Source of the DNA: a virus
IMG/VR virus record: IMGVR_UViG_3300025168_000498
Coordinates: 1 to 27,928 of that record
Length of the DNA: 27,928 nt
Strand: one strand, 5' to 3'
The stretch's first letter is position 1, and each line of letters starts with the position of its first letter. The notes beneath the pieces were generated by a model that searched no databases, was not told the origin of the DNA, and saw only the letters and a program-made list of their open reading frames with translations. Below, piece by piece: positions 16,019-27,928 of this stretch. Both the position numbers and the translations under genes were made by a program.

Positions 16019-16459
16019 ATGAGTAACAATGAAATGATACTTAAAGATGTAATGGCTGCATTAGATTCAACTGCTGAGCAAATAGAAGCAGAGAAAAACA
16101 TTACATGGGAAACTATAAATGATATAAAACAAAATGTTACAATGCATCTTAAGGAAAGATTAAACTTAGGTGCTGAGAAATATCAGAAAGAGTTACCAAT
16201 ATTTACTATTGACGATGAAAATCGTGACAATTTGCTTGAATGTGAGTATGAAATACTAGATGGATTAAATTATTCTAGTGCAGCACGCATGAAAGCGGCA
16301 GAATTTGGAGATGATAAGATAAAAAATGCTTATAGAATCCAGATAACAAGGGTTATTGCCCACTTATGTTATGCTTACTATAACTTAAAAGTAACGCAAG
16401 ACATAATAAATAATATTAATATTAATAAGAAAGATCCGAGGGAGGATTCAAATGAATAA
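16019..16459 (+). CDS. MazG-like all-helical protein (possible nucleotide pyrophosphatase)
   Basis: A 146-residue, largely helical protein. Residues about 47-60 (RLNLGAEKYQKELPIF) and 71-90 (NLLECEYEILDGLNYSSAAR) follow the pattern of phage MazG-like or dATP/dGTP pyrophosphohydrolase proteins, where a GA-x-KY segment precedes an E-x-x-x-E...D helix that binds metal; here E74, E78 and D81 are candidates. Such enzymes hydrolyse (d)NTPs or alarmones. The second metal-binding helix typical of MazG is not clear, so activity is uncertain. Its 3' end overlaps the ubiquitin-like gene by eight bases, placing it in the same message as the conjugation cassette. Confidence 0.45.
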   Translation: MSNNEMILKDVMAALDSTAEQIEAEKNITWETINDIKQNVTMHLKERLNLGAEKYQKELPIFTIDDENRDNLLECEYEILDGLNYSSAARMKAAEFGDDKIKNAYRIQITRVIAHLCYAYYNLKVTQDIINNININKKDPREDSNE

Positions 16460-16685
16460 TACAAGTATGACTATTAAGTTGATGTATAACAGTTCTAATT
16501 TTGCTGATACAGAGTTACCATCAAACGTAACATCTGTAGGACATCTTAGATCGCACTTAGGTGTAGATTCAAGAGCCGTAGTAAATCTAGACGGAGTAGT
16601 ATCAAGTGATGATACAACATCATTGAGAGATGGTGGCTACGTTGCTATTGTTAAATCAGATAAAACTGGTGGAGACAATGCATAG
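16452..16685 (+). CDS. Ubiquitin-like beta-grasp protein (Ubl), MoaD/ThiS-type
   Basis: A 77-residue protein with the beta-grasp layout: strand MTIKLMYN (6-13), second strand with TELPSNVTS (20-28), helix VGHLRSHLGVDS (29-40), strand AVVNLDGVVSSD (42-53), then TTSLRDGGYVAIV (55-67). The last part matches the V-N-G...L-x-D-G-D-x-V pattern of MoaD/ThiS and bacterial Ubls. The chain ends KTGGDNA: Gly73-Gly74 is placed where Ubls are activated, with three extra residues that a JAMM peptidase could remove. The ATG follows GGGAGGATT and overlaps the MazG-like gene. It probably acts as the transferable protein of the E1/E2/JAB genes just downstream. A sulfur-carrier role is the main alternative, but no MoaE- or ThiG-like gene is nearby. 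Confidence 0.8.
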   Translation: MNNTSMTIKLMYNSSNFADTELPSNVTSVGHLRSHLGVDSRAVVNLDGVVSSDDTTSLRDGGYVAIVKSDKTGGDNA

Positions 16686-16709
16686 GTTGAAGTAGTAAAG
16701 TTAAAACAA

Positions 16710-16749
16710 GTGTGGCTATCTTTTATGTGAGGGCATGGGATAGTCACAC
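16710..16749 (+). other. Intercistronic hairpin between Ubl and E2-like genes
   Basis: GTGTGGCTATC (16710-16720) pairs with GATAGTCACAC (16739-16749), 11 bp with one G-T pair and an 18-nt loop. It lies 25 bases after the Ubl stop and ends 12 bases before the SD of the E2-like gene. It could protect the Ubl message end or reduce downstream expression, giving more Ubl than enzyme. Confidence 0.55.
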
Positions 16750-16774
16750 GTTAATTAATCTAAGGAGGAATAAA

Positions 16775-18928
16775 ATGGCTGAAGCTAGAAATGGTAGAGA
16801 TTATGATATGAAAACTATTGAAATAGATGATTATAATCCAGATTTAAAATCAGTGTCAAAAGAAGTTATTGTTGGTCCAAAGAATAAGGTAATGAAAGAT
16901 ATTGAGACTTTAAACTCACAATATTTAACAAGACCATGGATTTACGGCAATAGAAGTAGATTACCAATATTAAAACCATTGGGAATCACAGAAGCATTTA
17001 ATTGGAAAAGAGGATATAAACAAACTATCATCGAAGCAATTAGATCACGATTTGATCAATATGGAAAAGTAAATGGAAGTTTAGATTTGCTATTAAATAG
17101 AAGACCACAAAGAATGGAGTGGGATAAGAAGCAATTTATAAAGAGTTTAATTCTAATTGATCAACAACTACGAGACTTAAGAGGACAAGGTGTCAACTTT
17201 GGTAATCAAGTAGAAAAAGCAATGGAATCTATAAATGAAATAAAGCTAATATTGAAAAAACAATACAAGGCAGTAGAAGAGTTTATAGAAAATTCAGAAT
17301 GGAAAGACAAAGTAGAATTAAATATGTACATAACCTTTCCAGAAGTAAAAGATGGTTGGATAGAAACTATGAATCTATCTAAACATGCAAAAGAAGTCAT
17401 CAAATGGCAGTGTTCTAAGTTAGTATTTGAAGTTTGGTATAAAGAATCAAATATACAAGTTCAATCTAATGGAGGAAACATATTGGGACAAGTTCCATTA
17501 AAACCATATGGGTTATCTTTTGGTCTTAAATTAGAGGAATATATAAATCTAATTCAAACTAAGGGTGATTTGCAAAATATTAATGCAACGAACTTTCAAA
17601 GAAGACATTATGGATATAGTAGAACATATTCTGATTTAGCTGGAATGAGAGCAGAAAGTAATAACAATAGTTATAATTGGGACGCACATTGGCCTAGTAA
17701 AAGAATAGAAAGTGTTATTCCAAATGGAGAAACTAACGATTATAGTGATAATTACGAATTATTACATCCATTTCTTCATAAAGGCTCTAGATCATATTCA
17801 AGCAGAGGTTCAAATGGAGTTACTATGTTCCATAAATGGGTAGAACAAGAAGATCTAGCAAAAACTGGTATTTGTTTTGGTAATCTGGAAACAGAAATAA
17901 CAGAACATTTAGTAAAGTTAGATCTTGTTGGTTTATTTATAACATTAACACTATGGAAAAGATATGAAATGGGTTCAACTGGACCTTTGAATCATATTAG
18001 CAAATCATTTCATGGTATGCCATCACAATATTCAAATGAATTTAGTATGGCAGTTGGAAAGAACCTGATAGACAATGCTTTGATGATGACTGGAAATATT
18101 GTTAGTCAAGATGTAATTATCAATGGTTGCACAACAAGTTGGTTATCTCCAAGGTTCCTAGAACCAAGAAGAGCTGAATTAATTGCAAATCATAAACCAT
18201 CTCTTGAAGAAATGAATAAAAGAGCAATATATCAAGCAAATTACTCAGATGGTGGAGGTAGAAGATATAGCGGTTTAGATGATTTCTTTACAGTAGAAAA
18301 TCTTTATTGGCTATCAAGCGATTCTTATCCAGAAATCAATAGAGAAATTCAATTTGAAGATGCATTAAATGAAGATGAAGAAATTGAAATGCGTGTTATG
18401 AATTGGGATATATTTGATCCTAAGTGGACTTTGAACGTTAAAGTTTTTCATAGGTCAACATATTCAAAAGAAATGTTCAATGATGATGAAGGTGATTATT
18501 GTGATTATTACGATAAAGCTTCAGATATGCATAAAGAAATAGCAATTTCTTTTGCTTATGCTTACGTAGAATATGCTGATAACATAGAATGTCAATTACG
18601 TGAAAAGTGTTATTGGTATCAATCCTTAAACTATATGATTAAAAAGTTGGAAGGTGAAATACCAGTTGATGCAGTGTCTTTTGCAGAATCATTAGCAATT
18701 AATAAAGCAGAGATGGATGTTGTAGAAGTAGCTCCAGATCCTGAATTATTACCCTTTGATGAAGGTTATGAAGATGCAACACAAGTATACGAAAGGTTGG
18801 CAGATGAAGCTATGGAAGAAGAGAGTATAGCAAACGAACAGCACAATGATGATATGGATCAAGAAAATGAAATAGCAAATCAAATGCGAACATGGGTTTC
18901 AGCATTGAGAGGAGGAAACAATGGCTAA
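16775..18928 (+). CDS. E2-like (UBC-fold) protein with large extensions, 717 residues
   Basis: I chose the ATG at 16775 because AAGGAGG lies eight bases upstream; a GTG at 16712 falls inside a hairpin. Residues about 180-260 (VELNMYITFPEVKDGW, KLVFEVWYKESNIQVQS) could be the beta-meander of a UBC fold. Residues 331-370 carry HPFLH followed about 30 residues later by GICFGN, the arrangement of the HP-x-(V/I/L)...G-x-C-(L/F)-G signature of prokaryotic E2-like proteins. Cys367 is the predicted thioester residue. It is followed by VKLDLVGLFITLTLWKRYE, as in the helix after the E2 cysteine. The remaining 300+ residues at each side have no family that I know; the C-terminal 60 are acidic. The end reads ALRGGNNG, overlapping the next gene's SD. 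Probable Ubl-conjugating enzyme, possibly with its own target-binding parts. Confidence 0.7.
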   Translation: MAEARNGRDYDMKTIEIDDYNPDLKSVSKEVIVGPKNKVMKDIETLNSQYLTRPWIYGNRSRLPILKPLGITEAFNWKRGYKQTIIEAIRSRFDQYGKVNGSLDLLLNRRPQRMEWDKKQFIKSLILIDQQLRDLRGQGVNFGNQVEKAMESINEIKLILKKQYKAVEEFIENSEWKDKVELNMYITFPEVKDGWIETMNLSKHAKEVIKWQCSKLVFEVWYKESNIQVQSNGGNILGQVPLKPYGLSFGLKLEEYINLIQTKGDLQNINATNFQRRHYGYSRTYSDLAGMRAESNNNSYNWDAHWPSKRIESVIPNGETNDYSDNYELLHPFLHKGSRSYSSRGSNGVTMFHKWVEQEDLAKTGICFGNLETEITEHLVKLDLVGLFITLTLWKRYEMGSTGPLNHISKSFHGMPSQYSNEFSMAVGKNLIDNALMMTGNIVSQDVIINGCTTSWLSPRFLEPRRAELIANHKPSLEEMNKRAIYQANYSDGGGRRYSGLDDFFTVENLYWLSSDSYPEINREIQFEDALNEDEEIEMRVMNWDIFDPKWTLNVKVFHRSTYSKEMFNDDEGDYCDYYDKASDMHKEIAISFAYAYVEYADNIECQLREKCYWYQSLNYMIKKLEGEIPVDAVSFAESLAINKAEMDVVEVAPDPELLPFDEGYEDATQVYERLADEAMEEESIANEQHNDDMDQENEIANQMRTWVSALRGGNNG

Positions 18929-19874
18929 TTTCTACATTAAAGAAGCAGAATGGAATAAGATACAAAATTATTGCAAATATGCTTGGGATGAGCATAAATC
19001 AGAAATAGGAGGAATGATGCTTGCCGAAAAAGATAAAGAAGGTAAATGGAAATTGTTTAAACCTTCTATACTAAAGCAAATAATATCAGCGGGTAATACC
19101 GTTTTAGAGAAAGAGGCTTTATCTCACTACTATATTGAAGTGGGAAAGAAGTATGCTAAAAGAAATGTTCAATTAGTGTGGTGGCACAGTCATCACACTA
19201 TGGCTGCATTTTGGTCTGGAACAGACTTAACAGCAATTGATGAAATGTCAAATGGTAATATGTCAATATCATTGGTAGTAAATCTTAAAGAAGAATACAA
19301 ATTACGTGTTAATCTTTGGAAACCATATCCAATGCATATAGATACTGAACTAGACATTATCAGAAATAAACCTAGAAACAAAGTTCCAAAAGGCATAGTG
19401 TCTGAAGTTGATATGTTATGTGAGAAACCAGTAATGCCAAAGTCAACAGCATTTTCTGAATATCAACGAAAACATAACAATACGTCTTGGACATATAGCA
19501 ACCAAGGAACATTGTTTCCAAAACAAGATCAAGAGTTAACTAACTTAGAAGTTAAAGTAGATGATATTTTAACTGACTATGCTTGGGATAGGATTAAATT
19601 TTATCAATATCATGATGCAATTAAAGCATTAAATGATGATTTAATAAAATCAGATTCTGAACTTAGAGTAGCTTTTACTTCTAAAGATAAACTAGATACT
19701 TGTATTCATACAATGCCAAGTGATAAATGGATCTATAGCAAAGGTAATAAATTTAGTTTGGAAGATGCTTTAATAGAAGCAGATGAAGAGCTATATGATT
19801 ACGGATGGTATACACGAAGTTACGAAGATGATCTAATCAAGACTGATAAGAAGTTATTGGAGGTATTAAAATGA
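18921..19874 (+). CDS. JAMM/JAB (MPN) metalloisopeptidase
   Basis: A 317-residue protein. The N-terminal 150 residues are a JAB domain: Glu28 in HKSEIGGMML, then WWHSHHTMAAFWSGTD with His89, His91, Ser99 and Asp102, the full E...H-x-H-x7-S-x-x-D zinc site of deubiquitinase-type JAMM proteins. Such enzymes cut after Gly-Gly, either maturing Ubl precursors or removing Ubl from targets. Residues about 160-317 are a helical, acidic extension of unknown role, containing two similar segments (ALNDDLIKSDSELR and DALIEADEELYDY), perhaps for substrate binding. The ATG is preceded by AGAGGAGG and overlaps the E2-like gene by eight bases; the end overlaps the E1-like gene by four. A phage-tail JAB (lambda gpK-like) is unlikely: no NlpC/P60 domain and far from tail genes. 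Confidence 0.85.
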   Translation: MANFYIKEAEWNKIQNYCKYAWDEHKSEIGGMMLAEKDKEGKWKLFKPSILKQIISAGNTVLEKEALSHYYIEVGKKYAKRNVQLVWWHSHHTMAAFWSGTDLTAIDEMSNGNMSISLVVNLKEEYKLRVNLWKPYPMHIDTELDIIRNKPRNKVPKGIVSEVDMLCEKPVMPKSTAFSEYQRKHNNTSWTYSNQGTLFPKQDQELTNLEVKVDDILTDYAWDRIKFYQYHDAIKALNDDLIKSDSELRVAFTSKDKLDTCIHTMPSDKWIYSKGNKFSLEDALIEADEELYDYGWYTRSYEDDLIKTDKKLLEVLK

Positions 19875-20515
19875 ATGTAAATCAAAGATATAATGCAATT
19901 GTAGATAACTTTGATTCCTATACATATCACATACTAGGTTGCGGAGCTATAGGTAGTTCCGCAGCTACCCAATTAGTTAGAATGGGTGCTACTAATCTTT
20001 ATCTTTATGATAGAGATACAGTAGGTGCAGAAAATATAGGAGTTTCAATGTTTAATCAAAAACATATAGGTTCAACTAAAACGGAAGCGTTAGAAGAAAT
20101 GTGTTTAGAAATTAACAATGATTGCAATATAACATGCTTTCAAGGAGAATTTGAAAAATATTCACCATACAACAATGATATAATTATCTTAGGATTTGAC
20201 TCTATGTCTTCAAGACTAGAAGCAGTAACTAATATATTAGATCATAAAAAACCAGATTATTTAATAGATGGTCGTATGGGTGCTGAACATTATCAGCAAT
20301 ATGTATTCAAAAATCCAACACTTGCAAAATATAAACTTACATGGTATAGCGATGAAGACGGAAGTTCAGAACCATGCAATGCTAAGGCTACAAGTTATTG
20401 TAGTAATATGAGTGGAAGTTTCATATCTAATACTATTAGAAAAATTTTAATGGAGCAACCTTATAATAAGGAGTTCTCTTTTAATTTTCCTACAATGTAT
20501 TTAGATTGCAAATAA
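19871..20515 (+). CDS. ThiF/E1-like Ubl-activating enzyme, minimal form
   Basis: A 214-residue Rossmann protein. The ATP-binding site is LGCGAIGS (22-29), followed by an acidic residue after strand two (LYLYDRD, Asp47), then AENIGVSMFNQKHIGSTKTEAL where N55, K64 and K70 occupy places of the E1 ATP-contact residues, and the conserved GFDSMSSR (108-115). Cys169 (SSEPCNAK) or Cys177 (ATSYCSNM) follows the crossover region and precedes SGSFISNTIRKIL, as the catalytic or zinc-binding Cys does in ThiF-like proteins. It would adenylate the Gly-Gly end of the Ubl. It is a bare adenylation domain, shorter than eukaryotic E1 or Bil-type E1. ATGA overlap with the JAB gene links the two. A MoeB/ThiF sulfur-transfer role is the alternative. 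Confidence 0.85.
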   Translation: MNVNQRYNAIVDNFDSYTYHILGCGAIGSSAATQLVRMGATNLYLYDRDTVGAENIGVSMFNQKHIGSTKTEALEEMCLEINNDCNITCFQGEFEKYSPYNNDIIILGFDSMSSRLEAVTNILDHKKPDYLIDGRMGAEHYQQYVFKNPTLAKYKLTWYSDEDGSSEPCNAKATSYCSNMSGSFISNTIRKILMEQPYNKEFSFNFPTMYLDCK

Positions 20516-20536: not shown

Positions 20537-20622
20537 AATAAAGCTTACATCGTGATATCGAATCGAGAATATCTCATTTTCGTTTACCCTAATATCAGTT
20601 AGATCATGATGTAAGCTTTATT
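20537..20622 (+). ncRNA. Structured intergenic element E, 86 nt
   Basis: Perfect 15-bp closing arms AATAAAGCTTACATC (20537-20551) and GATGTAAGCTTTATT (20608-20622), extended by GTGAT/ATCAT with one G-T pair to 20 bp. Inside, GAGA/TCTC can form a small hairpin. It ends the conjugation cassette. It may be a terminator, an RNase III target or a stable RNA; the T tract is interrupted. Confidence 0.55.
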
Positions 20623-20704: not shown

Positions 20705-21319
20705 ATGGGATTTAACATTAATAATTATACAGAAGTTAAAGATCGTGTGATCGCATTCAGTGAAGAATATCCTAAAGCTACAATAAAAACTGAATTATTA
20801 TCAGTAAACAATATAGTTGATTCACCAACAGGTGAAATGTGCAACGAATATATTATTAAAGCTAAGGTTATTCCAAATCCAATAGAAGAACCAGAAATTT
20901 ATTTCACAGGCTTAGCTGCCGAAAGAGATAATACAGGTTTTGTAAATAAAACAAGTGCACTAGAGAACGGAGAAACATCAGCAGTAGGTCGTGCATTAGC
21001 ATTTGCAGGCTTTGGTGGTGACTTTGCTATTGCTAGTAAAGAAGAAGTTCTCAACGCACAAGCAGCACAAAAAAAATCTAATGTAACTATTGCCATGACA
21101 AAAGAGCTAGATAAGCTTGTCAAAGATATGGACAAAGAAGGATCTTTAGATGCTAAAGCTGTTGCTAGATTTGGTATTAGAAGAGAAGAAGGCTATTTTG
21201 ACACAAAAGTTAAATGGCAAACTACAAAAAATTCTTTGACTATCAGTAGAAAAAGATGGTTACAAGATAATGAGGGGGCTAAAAGTGACAAAAAAATCAC
21301 AAAAAAACCTTCAAAATAA
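20705..21319 (+). CDS. Putative phage single-strand annealing/recombination protein
   Basis: A 204-residue protein with AAAAGGAGA about seven bases before its ATG. Residues 90-103, ETSAVGRALAFAGF, followed by GDFAIASKEEVLNAQ, match a pattern that I recall from phage proteins grouped with the ERF/Rad52-like annealing proteins, where a conserved S-A-x-GRAL helix precedes a short beta turn and the I-A-S-x-E-E-V segment. The C-terminal part (residues about 125-204) is helical and basic, ending KITKKPSK, and could bind DNA. It lies beside SSB-like and primase-helicase genes, supporting a role in recombination-dependent replication. The family assignment is from memory of the motif and is moderate. 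Confidence 0.5.
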   Translation: MGFNINNYTEVKDRVIAFSEEYPKATIKTELLSVNNIVDSPTGEMCNEYIIKAKVIPNPIEEPEIYFTGLAAERDNTGFVNKTSALENGETSAVGRALAFAGFGGDFAIASKEEVLNAQAAQKKSNVTIAMTKELDKLVKDMDKEGSLDAKAVARFGIRREEGYFDTKVKWQTTKNSLTISRKRWLQDNEGAKSDKKITKKPSK

Positions 21320-21575: not shown

Positions 21576-22133
21576 ATGGCTATTACAGGAACTAAAGTAT
21601 CAGCAAGCGGTGGTAATAAGAACTACTTTATTAACCAATGCACGATAACTGATATAGAAGTAATGGACTCACAATATACAGATATGAGTCTAAAAGTTAT
21701 ATTAACAGACAATAACAATGGTTATACATATAATTGTTTCGTTAATCAAAACTTTGAAAAAGACAATAATGGTGTTGTAACTGGATTAAAATTTCCAGAT
21801 GATTTAAACACTTTATTTCTTGCTACAAAAACAGATCTCAATGTATCAGACGCAGGGGTGTTAGATACTAAATCATTAGAATCTCTAATGCAACAAGAGG
21901 TTGCTTGTATTACTTATCAATCTAGTGGTAAATACAAAAGAAATACTTGGGGAGTTGTTTCAAGTATTGAAAATGCAGAGAATCTTGAAAAGAGATTTAA
22001 AACTCAATTAGAAAAAGGTTACCCTAAAGACTACAAAAAGCCAGAATCTCAAGGTTTATCACCAGAGATAATTAAGCATGTAGAAAAAACCTTGATTGAA
22101 CCAGAGCCATCTGATGACGGATTACCATTTTGA
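21576..22133 (+). CDS. Single-stranded DNA-binding protein (SSB-like)
   Basis: A 185-residue protein. Residues about 1-130 are strand-rich with FINQCTITDIEVMDSQYTDM, LKVILTDNNNGYTYNCFVNQ and KFPDDLNTLFLATKT, consistent with an OB-fold-like core. The C-terminus is acidic and ends EPSDDGLPF, close to the DDDIPF tip by which bacterial and phage SSBs recruit partner proteins. Placed between the annealing protein and primase-helicase genes, as SSBs often are. The ATG directly follows the previous stop (AAGGAGG upstream). The next gene starts by TTGA overlap at its end. The core does not show a clear bacterial SSB motif, so it is probably a divergent phage type. Confidence 0.65.
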   Translation: MAITGTKVSASGGNKNYFINQCTITDIEVMDSQYTDMSLKVILTDNNNGYTYNCFVNQNFEKDNNGVVTGLKFPDDLNTLFLATKTDLNVSDAGVLDTKSLESLMQQEVACITYQSSGKYKRNTWGVVSSIENAENLEKRFKTQLEKGYPKDYKKPESQGLSPEIIKHVEKTLIEPEPSDDGLPF

Positions 22134-25558: not shown

Positions 25559-27928
25559 CTAGTCTTCAGACAAATCTTGGTCTTGAATTGGCATTTCAGC
25601 TTGTTGTTCAGTTTCTAAGTCCTCAATTTGAGCTCTTCTCATTGAATGTAACCTATGTAATGGCATTCCAGTAAGAAAATCTACAGCCATTGCTGGATTT
25701 TGATATGTTCTATATGAATCTCTAATTAATCTACCATAAGGAAAGTATGTAGCTACTTGGTATTGTCTTAGCATTTCATAATCATTATTTAACATACTTG
25801 TTATTGGTGGTAAAACAAAACGTCCAATAGGTGGCGTTACAATTTGTAATGGTGCTAATACCTTAGATGGATATTGACTAAAGAATGCTCTATCACGTTC
25901 TTCTTTATCACCAAATAGTAGTTGTGCAGTATCTTGTGCCCAAGACATAGGTGGTGATAGTGCATACTCAAATATACTTGAAACAAATACATTAGCTAAT
26001 GCAAGTGACATTAGATCTGCTGTAAACTGTCTTTGAAATTGCTTAGTTTGTAAAAGTTCCTTATTCCAACCTTCTTGTTGTGCTCCTCTATATAACTTTA
26101 CTCTTCTTGCTATACTATTCCAAGCATAAGGATGGAAACGTGTCATAACACGACCAACTGAAGTGTTTGCAAAGTTAGGTCTATATGCAGCTTGATATAA
26201 GAACTGAGAACTTAGAACACCTTTCATAGCAAAATCTAATATAACTGGATTATCAAAAGCAATATTATTAGCAGCAGGTCCCATTACATTAAATCTCATG
26301 TTAATTGCATTAGCTAAGAATGCAGTACCACGTAGTTTACGTTCAGACCATTTCATAGGCCATGCACCAGCTTCAATAAATGGTGTTGAAATTTTATATT
26401 CTTTAGCTAGCTCTCCATGAGTTTGTTTAGCTCTTCTATTATAAGCTTCTGGTGTTTCAAGTTCACCTTTTCTAGCAGATTTATTCATTTTTGTAATAAA
26501 CTCTACCCAAAATTTTCTTTGGTTTTTTTGTCCAAAACGTCTATCTAAACCAACCATATCAGTAAACATCTGATCAAACACACCTAAAGATTCCATCCAA
26601 CCTTGGATATCTTCTTTAGTTCTAATTGGTTTTCTTTCAAAAGATTTAGTTTCTTTGTTATATTTAGTGAAATAAGCATTTTCACCAAAAAATTGTGCTA
26701 ACAACCAGTCAGTATCATTTGCTTTTCTAAATGGTGCCCAACCAGTATCAGAGATAGTATTTTGCATACCACCATATAGATTTGTTATTAATGTTTTAGG
26801 GTGAGATAATAATGATATCAATTCAAACTTACCTTCAATATCTGAAATTTGTTTAATTCTTTGCATCTTAGCCATTTGTCTGGCTTTTTTACTTTTAGGT
26901 AAAGGTCCATACAAACTACCACCCATAGCTCCATCTATTTTATCAAAAAATCTAGTTGCAGCACCATCTGAATAGTAGTGACTTAACGTTCCATATATAC
27001 CAGTGGTATTAACTTGGTTAACAAGTCTTTTAGCTTTCTCTAATCTCATGCTTAACATTTTTTGTTTTGAATAACTAATTCTCTCAGACATTACAGATGA
27101 AATACCTTTTGAATCACCCCATATTTGATTTTGTTGCATTTCACCAATAGATGTTGCTATATCAAAATCATACAATAAATCTTTTTTATATGTACCCAAT
27201 AGACCCATTTTAGAAGAATCTAATTTATTATCTACATAACTTTGAAGAAAAGCTTGATCTTGTTCTTTAATACCATTTAAGTTTAATGCTCTAGCAGTAG
27301 GCATACCCATCATACTAACAAAACTACCTCTCATATAGTTTAACCAATTAGGCATATAATCTTCACTCTGATTTTTTTTACTGAACTCTTCTAAAGCCAT
27401 TTCTGTTCTTAGTCCAATAACGTTTGTAAGCCATGTTTTACTACCACCATCTAAGTAATTTCTAAGAGCCTCAAGATTCTTTTGATAAAAAGGCATAAAT
27501 CCATCTCCCCTTGATTGGAAGTTAGCATGAGTTTTTTCACCTAATTCAAATTCTTTTTTATTTCCAGTTAAAATGTCGTATAGTTGTGTTTCAGATTCAT
27601 ATTGCTGTTGAGTTAAAGAGTTTCCTTTAGTTTTTTCCATCTGTGCATCTAATATGTTTTCTTTATACCATGCTTTAGCAGTAGATAAATCTGTAATACC
27701 ATCTTCTTTTAATCTTAATTTCATTTGAACTGCGTGAGGTAAATCTGCTTCAGTTTTAATACTTTCTAATTTTTTTATATTCTTAGCATTTATCCAGGTT
27801 TCTATCTCTGGTATATTTTCTTTTATTAAAAAATGTCCATTTCTAGGAAAATATCCTTCTGCAATATACCCTACTGTTTCATTAATAAAGTCATAATCTA
27901 TTCCTTCTTCGTTCTTCTTAGCTGATCT
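25559..27928 (-). CDS. Very large virion/internal protein, 5' end cut by window edge
   Basis: The frame is open from the right edge to TAG at 25559; the ATG at 27724 is internal, since the codons before it (reading AEGYFPRNGHFLIKENIPE and so on) stay open to 27928. At least 789 residues are visible. Largely helical, basic and Gln/Lys-rich, with PFYQKNLEALRNYLDGGSKT, KRIKQISDIEGKFELISLLS, and a hydrophobic segment LMSLALANVFVSSIFEYALS near residue 580 of the visible part. The C-terminus (IEDLETEQQAEMPIQDQDLS) is acidic. Length and style fit internal virion or DNA-ejection proteins, or large polyvalent proteins, of podovirus-like phages. No catalytic motif seen. It is convergent with the early block. 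Confidence 0.65.
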   Translation of the reverse strand, partial: RSAKKNEEGIDYDFINETVGYIAEGYFPRNGHFLIKENIPEIETWINAKNIKKLESIKTEADLPHAVQMKLRLKEDGITDLSTAKAWYKENILDAQMEKTKGNSLTQQQYESETQLYDILTGNKKEFELGEKTHANFQSRGDGFMPFYQKNLEALRNYLDGGSKTWLTNVIGLRTEMALEEFSKKNQSEDYMPNWLNYMRGSFVSMMGMPTARALNLNGIKEQDQAFLQSYVDNKLDSSKMGLLGTYKKDLLYDFDIATSIGEMQQNQIWGDSKGISSVMSERISYSKQKMLSMRLEKAKRLVNQVNTTGIYGTLSHYYSDGAATRFFDKIDGAMGGSLYGPLPKSKKARQMAKMQRIKQISDIEGKFELISLLSHPKTLITNLYGGMQNTISDTGWAPFRKANDTDWLLAQFFGENAYFTKYNKETKSFERKPIRTKEDIQGWMESLGVFDQMFTDMVGLDRRFGQKNQRKFWVEFITKMNKSARKGELETPEAYNRRAKQTHGELAKEYKISTPFIEAGAWPMKWSERKLRGTAFLANAINMRFNVMGPAANNIAFDNPVILDFAMKGVLSSQFLYQAAYRPNFANTSVGRVMTRFHPYAWNSIARRVKLYRGAQQEGWNKELLQTKQFQRQFTADLMSLALANVFVSSIFEYALSPPMSWAQDTAQLLFGDKEERDRAFFSQYPSKVLAPLQIVTPPIGRFVLPPITSMLNNDYEMLRQYQVATYFPYGRLIRDSYRTYQNPAMAVDFLTGMPLHRLHSMRRAQIEDLETEQQAEMPIQDQDLSED

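Follow-up and report, generated by a model that had tools for sequence, protein, structure and literature searches.

A four-gene cassette beside the replication genes of a tailed phage probably encodes its own ubiquitin-like conjugation pathway

Does a phage encode its own machinery for joining a ubiquitin-like protein (Ubl) to other proteins? The question is raised by a viral fragment from IMG/VR, 27,928 bases long, the whole of which is called the window here. Four genes on one of its strands code for a Ubl, an E2-like protein, a JAMM metalloprotease and a minimal E1/ThiF-like protein (Table 1). An earlier note, made from the DNA letters alone, had placed these genes at 16452-20515, described their motifs and overlaps of 4-8 bases and read them as the four parts of a conjugation cassette; every one of these features was verified in the sequence. 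Since the - strand of the window carries genes for the terminase TerL, a portal, a major head protein and a tail fibre, the fragment is confirmed as that of a tailed phage. The replication module on the + strand includes an annealing protein of the ERF type, a DnaB-like primase-helicase and a RusA-like resolvase. The cassette is located between replication genes, on the strand opposite the structural genes. We propose that the cassette is probably a phage-specific pathway of Ubl conjugation and deconjugation that acts on the replication-recombination module.

Table 1. Positions of the cassette genes and of neighbouring features in the window.
Feature	Position	Strand	Length	Details
Ubl	16452..16685	+	77 residues	beta-grasp; C-terminus K71-T-G-G-D-N-A; Gly-Gly codons 16668-16673
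E2-like protein	16775..18928	+	717 residues from ATG	HPFL (H331-P332) 17765; C367 17873
JAMM metalloprotease	18921..19874	+	317 residues	E28 19002; H89 19185; H91 19191; S99 19215; D102 19224
Minimal E1/ThiF-like protein	19871..20515	+	214 residues	one domain; GCGAIG; candidate catalytic C169 20375
ERF-type single-stranded DNA annealing protein	20705..21319	+		PHROG matches; directly 3' of E1
Gene upstream of Ubl, function unassigned	16019..16459	+	146 residues	open reading frame call
Inverted repeat	20537..20622	+		20-nucleotide arms 20537-20556 and 20603-20622, one mismatch; between E1 and ERF gene

To find relatives of the cassette, an alignment of the E1 was used as bait because E2-like and Ubl queries found nothing: the E2-like protein as sole query returned no match in IMG/VR, and tblastn of this protein, or of one relative's Ubl, returned none among named phages. 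The E1 bait detected relatives encoded in 378 IMG/VR stretches, of which the best 80 were kept. These loci are kin, and the counts given here are thus not independent trials. Among the loci with enough sequence upstream of E1, to which the co-conservation counts are limited, JAMM was kept in 69 of 69, the E2-like gene in 54 of 54 and the Ubl in 49 of 49. The ratios of nonsynonymous to synonymous substitution rates (dN/dS), calculated for the window and the relative closest to it (locus L006), were 0.17 for Ubl, 0.38 for the E2-like gene, 0.39 for JAMM and 0.17 for E1; since all lie between 0.17 and 0.39, the four genes are maintained by purifying selection. Identity to L006 was lowest for the E2-like protein (47-48%) and reached 83% for E1. 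The same four-gene order, for which the earlier note had suggested a search in other phages, is present in IMG/VR loci and also in crAss-like and Flavobacterium phages, as described below.

The Ubl had no match in sequence-family libraries. Its AlphaFold2 model (predicted local distance difference test score, pLDDT, 83) showed the order beta-beta-alpha-beta-beta-beta, and the best matches of this model among solved structures were MoaD, ThiS, Mth1743 and ubiquitin-like proteins. A hidden Markov model (HMM) of the family was built without the C-terminus to test the Gly-Gly independently. All 54 Ubls that it found, in 54 loci, had Gly-Gly at the expected place, compared with a background of 4% of open reading frames with a Gly-Gly near the end; identity to the window copy drops to 16% among these relatives. 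The Gly-Gly lies within 8 residues of the Ubl end in 45 of the 54, and eight have tails of 9-11 residues. A conserved lysine stands before the threonine or valine that precedes the Gly-Gly. Many of the relatives end in Gly-Gly already, and JAMM probably cleaves off the three-residue tail of the window Ubl. One locus (L039, 2288-2875) encodes a Ubl ending in NKTGG that is fused to a domain of more than 110 residues, like a ubiquitin-fusion precursor; this domain has no relatives among the loci and no Pfam match. The protein is therefore a beta-grasp modifier with a C-terminal glycine that can be exposed.

The JAMM protein matched PADLOC JAB (8.6e-08) and, with 24.0 bits against a cut-off of 25, Pfam Prok-JAB (3.6e-05). 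Among solved structures, its family profile came closest to the Rpn11 deubiquitinases from Caldiarchaeum and the 26S proteasome (3.9e-08). The five residues listed in Table 1 were invariant in 33 of 33 JAMM sequences, so that the E...HxH...S..D pattern is complete. The gene overlaps the E2-like gene by 8 nucleotides and the E1 gene by 4.

The E1 matched Pfam ThiF (4.8e-19), and a profile of 35 relatives matched E1 chains of solved structures, namely UBA6, UBA5, MccB, ThiF, MoeB, Cap2 and Bub, with UBA6 and UBA5 the nearest. G23/G25, D47, N55, K70, D110, R115 and C169 were invariant, crAss-like phages included, and the count for C169 was 35 of 35 sequences. We take the position of C169 to resemble that of the catalytic cysteine in E1s of the UBA5/ThiF type. 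At the level of residues, the protein thus appears to be an E1 with an adenylation site and a catalytic cysteine.

These similarities could also point to a sulfur relay, in which the Ubl would be a carrier like ThiS, MoaD or TtuB, activated by the ThiF-like E1 and trimmed by JAMM, and the large protein would be the acceptor or synthase, for example in nucleotide or tRNA thiolation. ThiS and MoaD are indeed among the folds closest to the Ubl, one-domain E1s of the ThiF/MoeB type often work in sulfur transfer, and the E1 is labelled thiamine biosynthesis in records of crAss-like phages. However, the E1 sequence has no CxxC zinc-type cysteine pairs, and the nearest PDB profiles were deubiquitinases for JAMM and conjugation E1s for E1. 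Genes for rhodanese and for TtuA-type (ATP_bind_3) proteins were absent in 15 E1-containing records searched with controls, where sulfur donors from the host would be possible. The invariant HP...CxG cysteine of the E2-like protein likewise weighs against a sulfur relay, and we regard such a relay as quite unlikely.

The most probable start of the E2-like gene is the ATG at 16775, which is preceded by a strong aaggagg site; an alternative GTG upstream at 16712 would give 738 residues. The candidate active-site region contains HPFL, the motif GICFGN with the putative catalytic C367, W394 and an NPLN-like PLN at 404-406. C367 was invariant in 48 of 48 relatives, and P332, W394 and P404 were each present in 47 of the 48, giving a family pattern of HP[FY][IV] followed by C-x-G, W394 and NPLN. 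At the level of motifs the protein therefore resembles an E2, with a candidate catalytic cysteine in HP...C. Aligned with the profile of PRTRC_B, the E2 of the PRTRC operon, it matched on the catalytic cysteine (GICFGN and GKICIGS) and beat 100 of 100 column shuffles, over 12 columns only. UBE2D2 aligned in the same register, where 8 of 100 shuffles scored better, and profile-profile comparisons with Cap2-type and Prok-E2_E domains gave scores no better than shuffles. Family libraries gave no match, and Pfam and NCBIfam searches with the 48 relatives gave scattered weak matches and no E2 family. In the C-terminal part, a conserved C-x4/5-C-x5-C-x2-[YF] motif around C606, partly lost in the window, may possibly be a metal site or an E3-like element.

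The structure model of the E2-like protein was of moderate quality (mean pLDDT 73.7), with a four-strand meander at 215-252, helices after C367 and an active-site loop below 50. In a viral structure search, the matches beyond close kin were a 435-residue protein of phage cr128_1 (E 0.11) and a 420-residue protein (E 0.031) whose accession is similar to one belonging to a Flavobacterium phage. Both matches are weak, although they have the right gene position and size. The identification as an E2 is the weak link of the cassette and is based on the invariant HP...C-x-G motif, the gene context and the motif-level match to PRTRC_B. With this qualification, the reading of the four genes as Ubl, E2-like, JAMM and E1 is supported.

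Relatives of the E1 were found in 74 named phage records, which belong to Flavobacterium phages and to crAss-like phages such as crAss001, DAC15, frurule and cr128_1; megablast with the window as query gave no match among named phages. The block in these phages has the order Ubl, a protein with MHSH...CxG in the E2 position, JAMM and E1, with a primase adjoining. Its E1 and JAMM are homologous to those of the window and its neighbourhood is also one of replication genes, including Sak4. It differs in that the E1 often has an N-terminal extension and in that a uracil-DNA glycosylase follows instead of an annealing protein. The E1s of the window, of crAss-like and of Flavobacterium phages formed one clade with support of 99/97. 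The bacterial ThiF proteins in the sample, those of PRTRC and CBASS among them, fell outside it, in a tree sampled without the ThiF and MoeB of model bacteria. The genes gp79-gp76 of crAss001 are annotated as hypothetical, metalloprotease and ThiF, and others as "thiamine biosynthesis". The paper that first described crAss001 is silent on its cassette genes in the main text, and a search of the open-access literature, with subscription papers and preprints outside it, found nothing that connects a Ubl cassette with crAss-like phages or with the replication region of any phage. In phage cr106_1 (L118, 2699-3902), the crAss-type Ubl gene contains an insertion, an HNH endonuclease gene placed exactly behind KSG, which leaves a free-standing Ubl that ends in KSGKF and a separate C-terminal open reading frame. 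The split point fits a domain border after KSG in the crAss-type Ubl.

No such cassette was found in cellular genomes at the search sensitivity used. The E1 matches from genome collections were rejected as cassette relatives because they are other ThiF proteins, for instance one adjoining a ThiS-like gene (L087). A contig in a Spirochaetia metagenome-assembled genome (L086, 1-3681) carries a crAss-like E1 and a uracil-DNA glycosylase and looks like a misbinned phage contig.

Among known systems, the plasmid-borne PRTRC operon (ParB-related, ThiF-related cassette) is the closest in architecture to the cassette, and closer than Bil. As read in two PRTRC loci (L120 and L121), it shares with the cassette the order Ubl-E2-JAB-E1, genes that abut or overlap, an E2 that stands alone and a separate E1 of one domain. 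The complete order in both loci is E-C(Ubl)-F-B(E2)-A(JAB)-ThiF, with the E, C and F proteins identified in L120. PRTRC thus has an E gene ahead of the Ubl gene and an F gene separating the Ubl gene from that of the E2, whereas F is absent from that place in the window, and PRTRC E, F and ParB-related proteins were not found among the ten + strand proteins around the cassette, the record being a fragment. The PRTRC_C protein of L120 ends in ..AKGAHAQI and not in Gly-Gly. Moreover, no window protein reached a PRTRC cut-off, with 17.2 bits against a cut-off of 101.8 for PRTRC A, 23.8 against 144.75 for PRTRC ThiF and no match to B or C, and the E1s fall in separate clades. In type II CBASS, E1 and E2 are fused in the Cap2 protein, which conjugates the CD-NTase with no separate Ubl involved. 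The window E1 matches Cap2 profiles, and the E1, E2-like and JAB activities predicted for the cassette would parallel those of Cap2 and Cap3. The cassette differs from CBASS in having a gene each for the E1 and the E2-like protein and in including a Ubl, and no CD-NTase was seen.

The earlier note had given the gene order as that of bilA-bilB-bilC-bilD. The order is indeed that of Bil (A-B-C-D), but since PRTRC has it as well, it is not diagnostic of Bil. BilA has two Ubl domains, BilB carries a C-E-H-H motif (C-x5-E-x-H-x4-H), and BilD combines an inactive and an active adenylation domain with a Cys domain; the JAB of Bil is a Ubl protease (PMC11354881). In contrast, the window Ubl is a single 77-residue beta-grasp domain, C367 is followed by FGNLETEITEH, without the CEHH spacing of E and H and with no conservation of it in the family, and the E1 is 214 residues long with one ThiF domain. 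The cassette is also phage-encoded. Membership in Bil was therefore rejected on the three features tested (Ubl domains, CEHH and E1 domains), leaving order as the only match.

The bacterial relatives of these enzyme families are anti-phage systems such as Bil and CBASS (PMC10097602, PMC11354881), and the cassette may accordingly be thought to serve counter-defence or attack. It would then tag proteins of host defences, rival phages or plasmids, or act as a decoy of a host Bil or CBASS Ubl pathway. The fast evolution of the E2-like protein is what would be expected of a part that tracks changing targets. Against this, likeness to the Ubl systems of host defence goes no further than the family level, and PADLOC defence models matched no neighbour. 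Moreover, every relative has the cassette, which keeps a constant place next to replication genes instead of lying in a variable accessory region. We consider this alternative rather unlikely.

The neighbourhood of the cassette bears most directly on its likely target. All 75 loci with sufficient sequence encode a single-stranded DNA annealing protein directly 3' of E1; in 67 of them it is the first open reading frame of at least 100 residues. It is ERF-like in 40 loci and Sak4, an unrelated protein, in 35; five exchanges between the two were counted on the best E1 tree, one of which is forced by well-supported branches. A DnaB-like helicase lies downstream in most loci, and in crAss-like phages the block is near a primase, Sak4 and uracil-DNA glycosylase. 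Because of this linkage in 75 of 75 loci and the replication neighbourhood, a role in replication or recombination is favoured over virion tagging or counter-defence. Of the functions offered in the earlier note, the tagging of the phage's own replication proteins has therefore gained, and that of virion proteins or of defence and rival proteins has lost. The targets most likely belong to the phage's own replication and recombination machinery or are host proteins that come into contact with it, judging from linkage only.

The same placement bears on a role in tail or virion assembly. Ubl and JAB proteins do occur in phage tail clusters, as in the phage-encoded gpI/gpK pair of lambda, which lacks E1 and E2 and has an NlpC/P60 partner (PMC1779556). 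In contrast, the cassette includes an E1 and an E2-like gene, its JAMM protein is without an NlpC domain, and it is located amid replication genes on the strand opposite the structural genes. A tail role thus seems highly improbable, in agreement with the earlier note, which had argued from the location for early expression; the position on the replication side and the probably early timing are upheld by it.

We propose the following sequence of enzymatic steps, as suggested by the protein families; the genes, active-site residues, Gly-Gly, co-conservation, selection and linkage on which it builds are observed. JAMM would trim the tail after Gly-Gly where a tail exists. The one-domain E1 would adenylate the Ubl, probably acting as a UBA5/ThiF-type homodimer, and hold it as a thioester on C169, from which it would be handed to C367 of the E2-like protein. 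No E3 was found, and the large N- and C-terminal parts of the E2-like protein would probably select the substrate. The Ubl would then be joined to lysines of target proteins and be stripped off again by JAMM. That JAMM is kept where the Ubl already ends in Gly-Gly suggests deconjugation and not maturation alone. More specifically, a phage clade that includes crAss-like gut phages may modify proteins of the fork and of recombination, such as the annealing protein, the single-stranded DNA-binding protein SSB, the helicase or host nucleases. This would be a viral, prokaryotic counterpart of the ubiquitylation and SUMOylation of PCNA and RPA in eukaryotes, with the E2-like protein as a combined E2/E3. 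We offer this extension only tentatively.

Several observations weigh against the proposed pathway. Neither HMM nor profile-profile scores gave the E2-like protein a significant match to any E2 family. Foldseek and VIA searches with the whole model listed no UBC chain, so that the check for a UBC fold in the 717-residue protein, proposed in the earlier note, matched no solved UBC structure. Such a fold is still possible because the model searched comprised all 717 residues with a poor active-site loop. One locus (L008, 1438-3377) has genes for Ubl, JAMM and E1 only; the E2-like gene is missing from this place and was found nowhere else in the 27.8-kb record by a search that detected it in three control records. 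The crAss-like Ubl has a beta-grasp that ends in KSGA with a long C-terminal extension, not in Gly-Gly; that of FpV4 has KSGG. Finally, the synteny with the annealing protein may be due partly to shared ancestry of the replication module, and kinship among the loci inflates every count.

Some of these observations would be explained by conjugation without an E2. In that case Ubl, E1 and JAMM would suffice, as in SAMP/Urm1, and the 717-residue protein would be the main substrate, an adaptor or an E3-like factor. The lack of the large gene in L008, the failure to recover a UBC fold and the fact that C367 is the only residue of the protein invariant among its 48 relatives are all in favor of this explanation. 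However, that residue is a cysteine in HP...CxG with a downstream NPLN, as in E2s, and the protein matches PRTRC_B at the level of motifs. The large gene is also present in 54 of 54 testable loci, and crAss-like phages have a gene in the same place. We hence judge E2-independent conjugation to be unlikely. Both it and counter-defence are themselves forms of conjugation, compatible with the core of the pathway proposed here, and our confidences in the three overlap.

Complete Ubl cascades of bacteria are known as host defences or uncharacterized plasmid cassettes, and the open-access papers searched contain no account of one that belongs to the conserved core of a phage lineage. If conjugation occurs, phages themselves would use Ubl signaling. 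All members tested tie the cassette to DNA annealing or replication, where eukaryotes also use such tags. Proteins of gut phages now annotated as thiamine biosynthesis or metalloprotease would then need new names. Cultured phages with a divergent block (crAss001, DAC15 and FpV4) make the question directly testable.

The window has some further features. The gene upstream of Ubl shares 8 nucleotides with the Ubl start and is probably co-transcribed with it. It is kept in only some relatives, and scans of family libraries and neighbours gave no match. A large - strand open reading frame at 25559-27928 codes for at least 721 residues and runs off the end of the window; it had no Pfam match and one marginal PHROG match, to a family of unknown function. 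Scans for Rfam families and tRNAs found none in the window, and scans for promoters and terminators were no better than shuffles. The inverted repeat is predicted to form a very stable RNA hairpin (fold z-score -5.6), and L006 has a diverged repeat at the equivalent site. Between the annealing protein and the helicase, the window encodes a 185-residue protein (21576-22133) that is conserved in many relatives.

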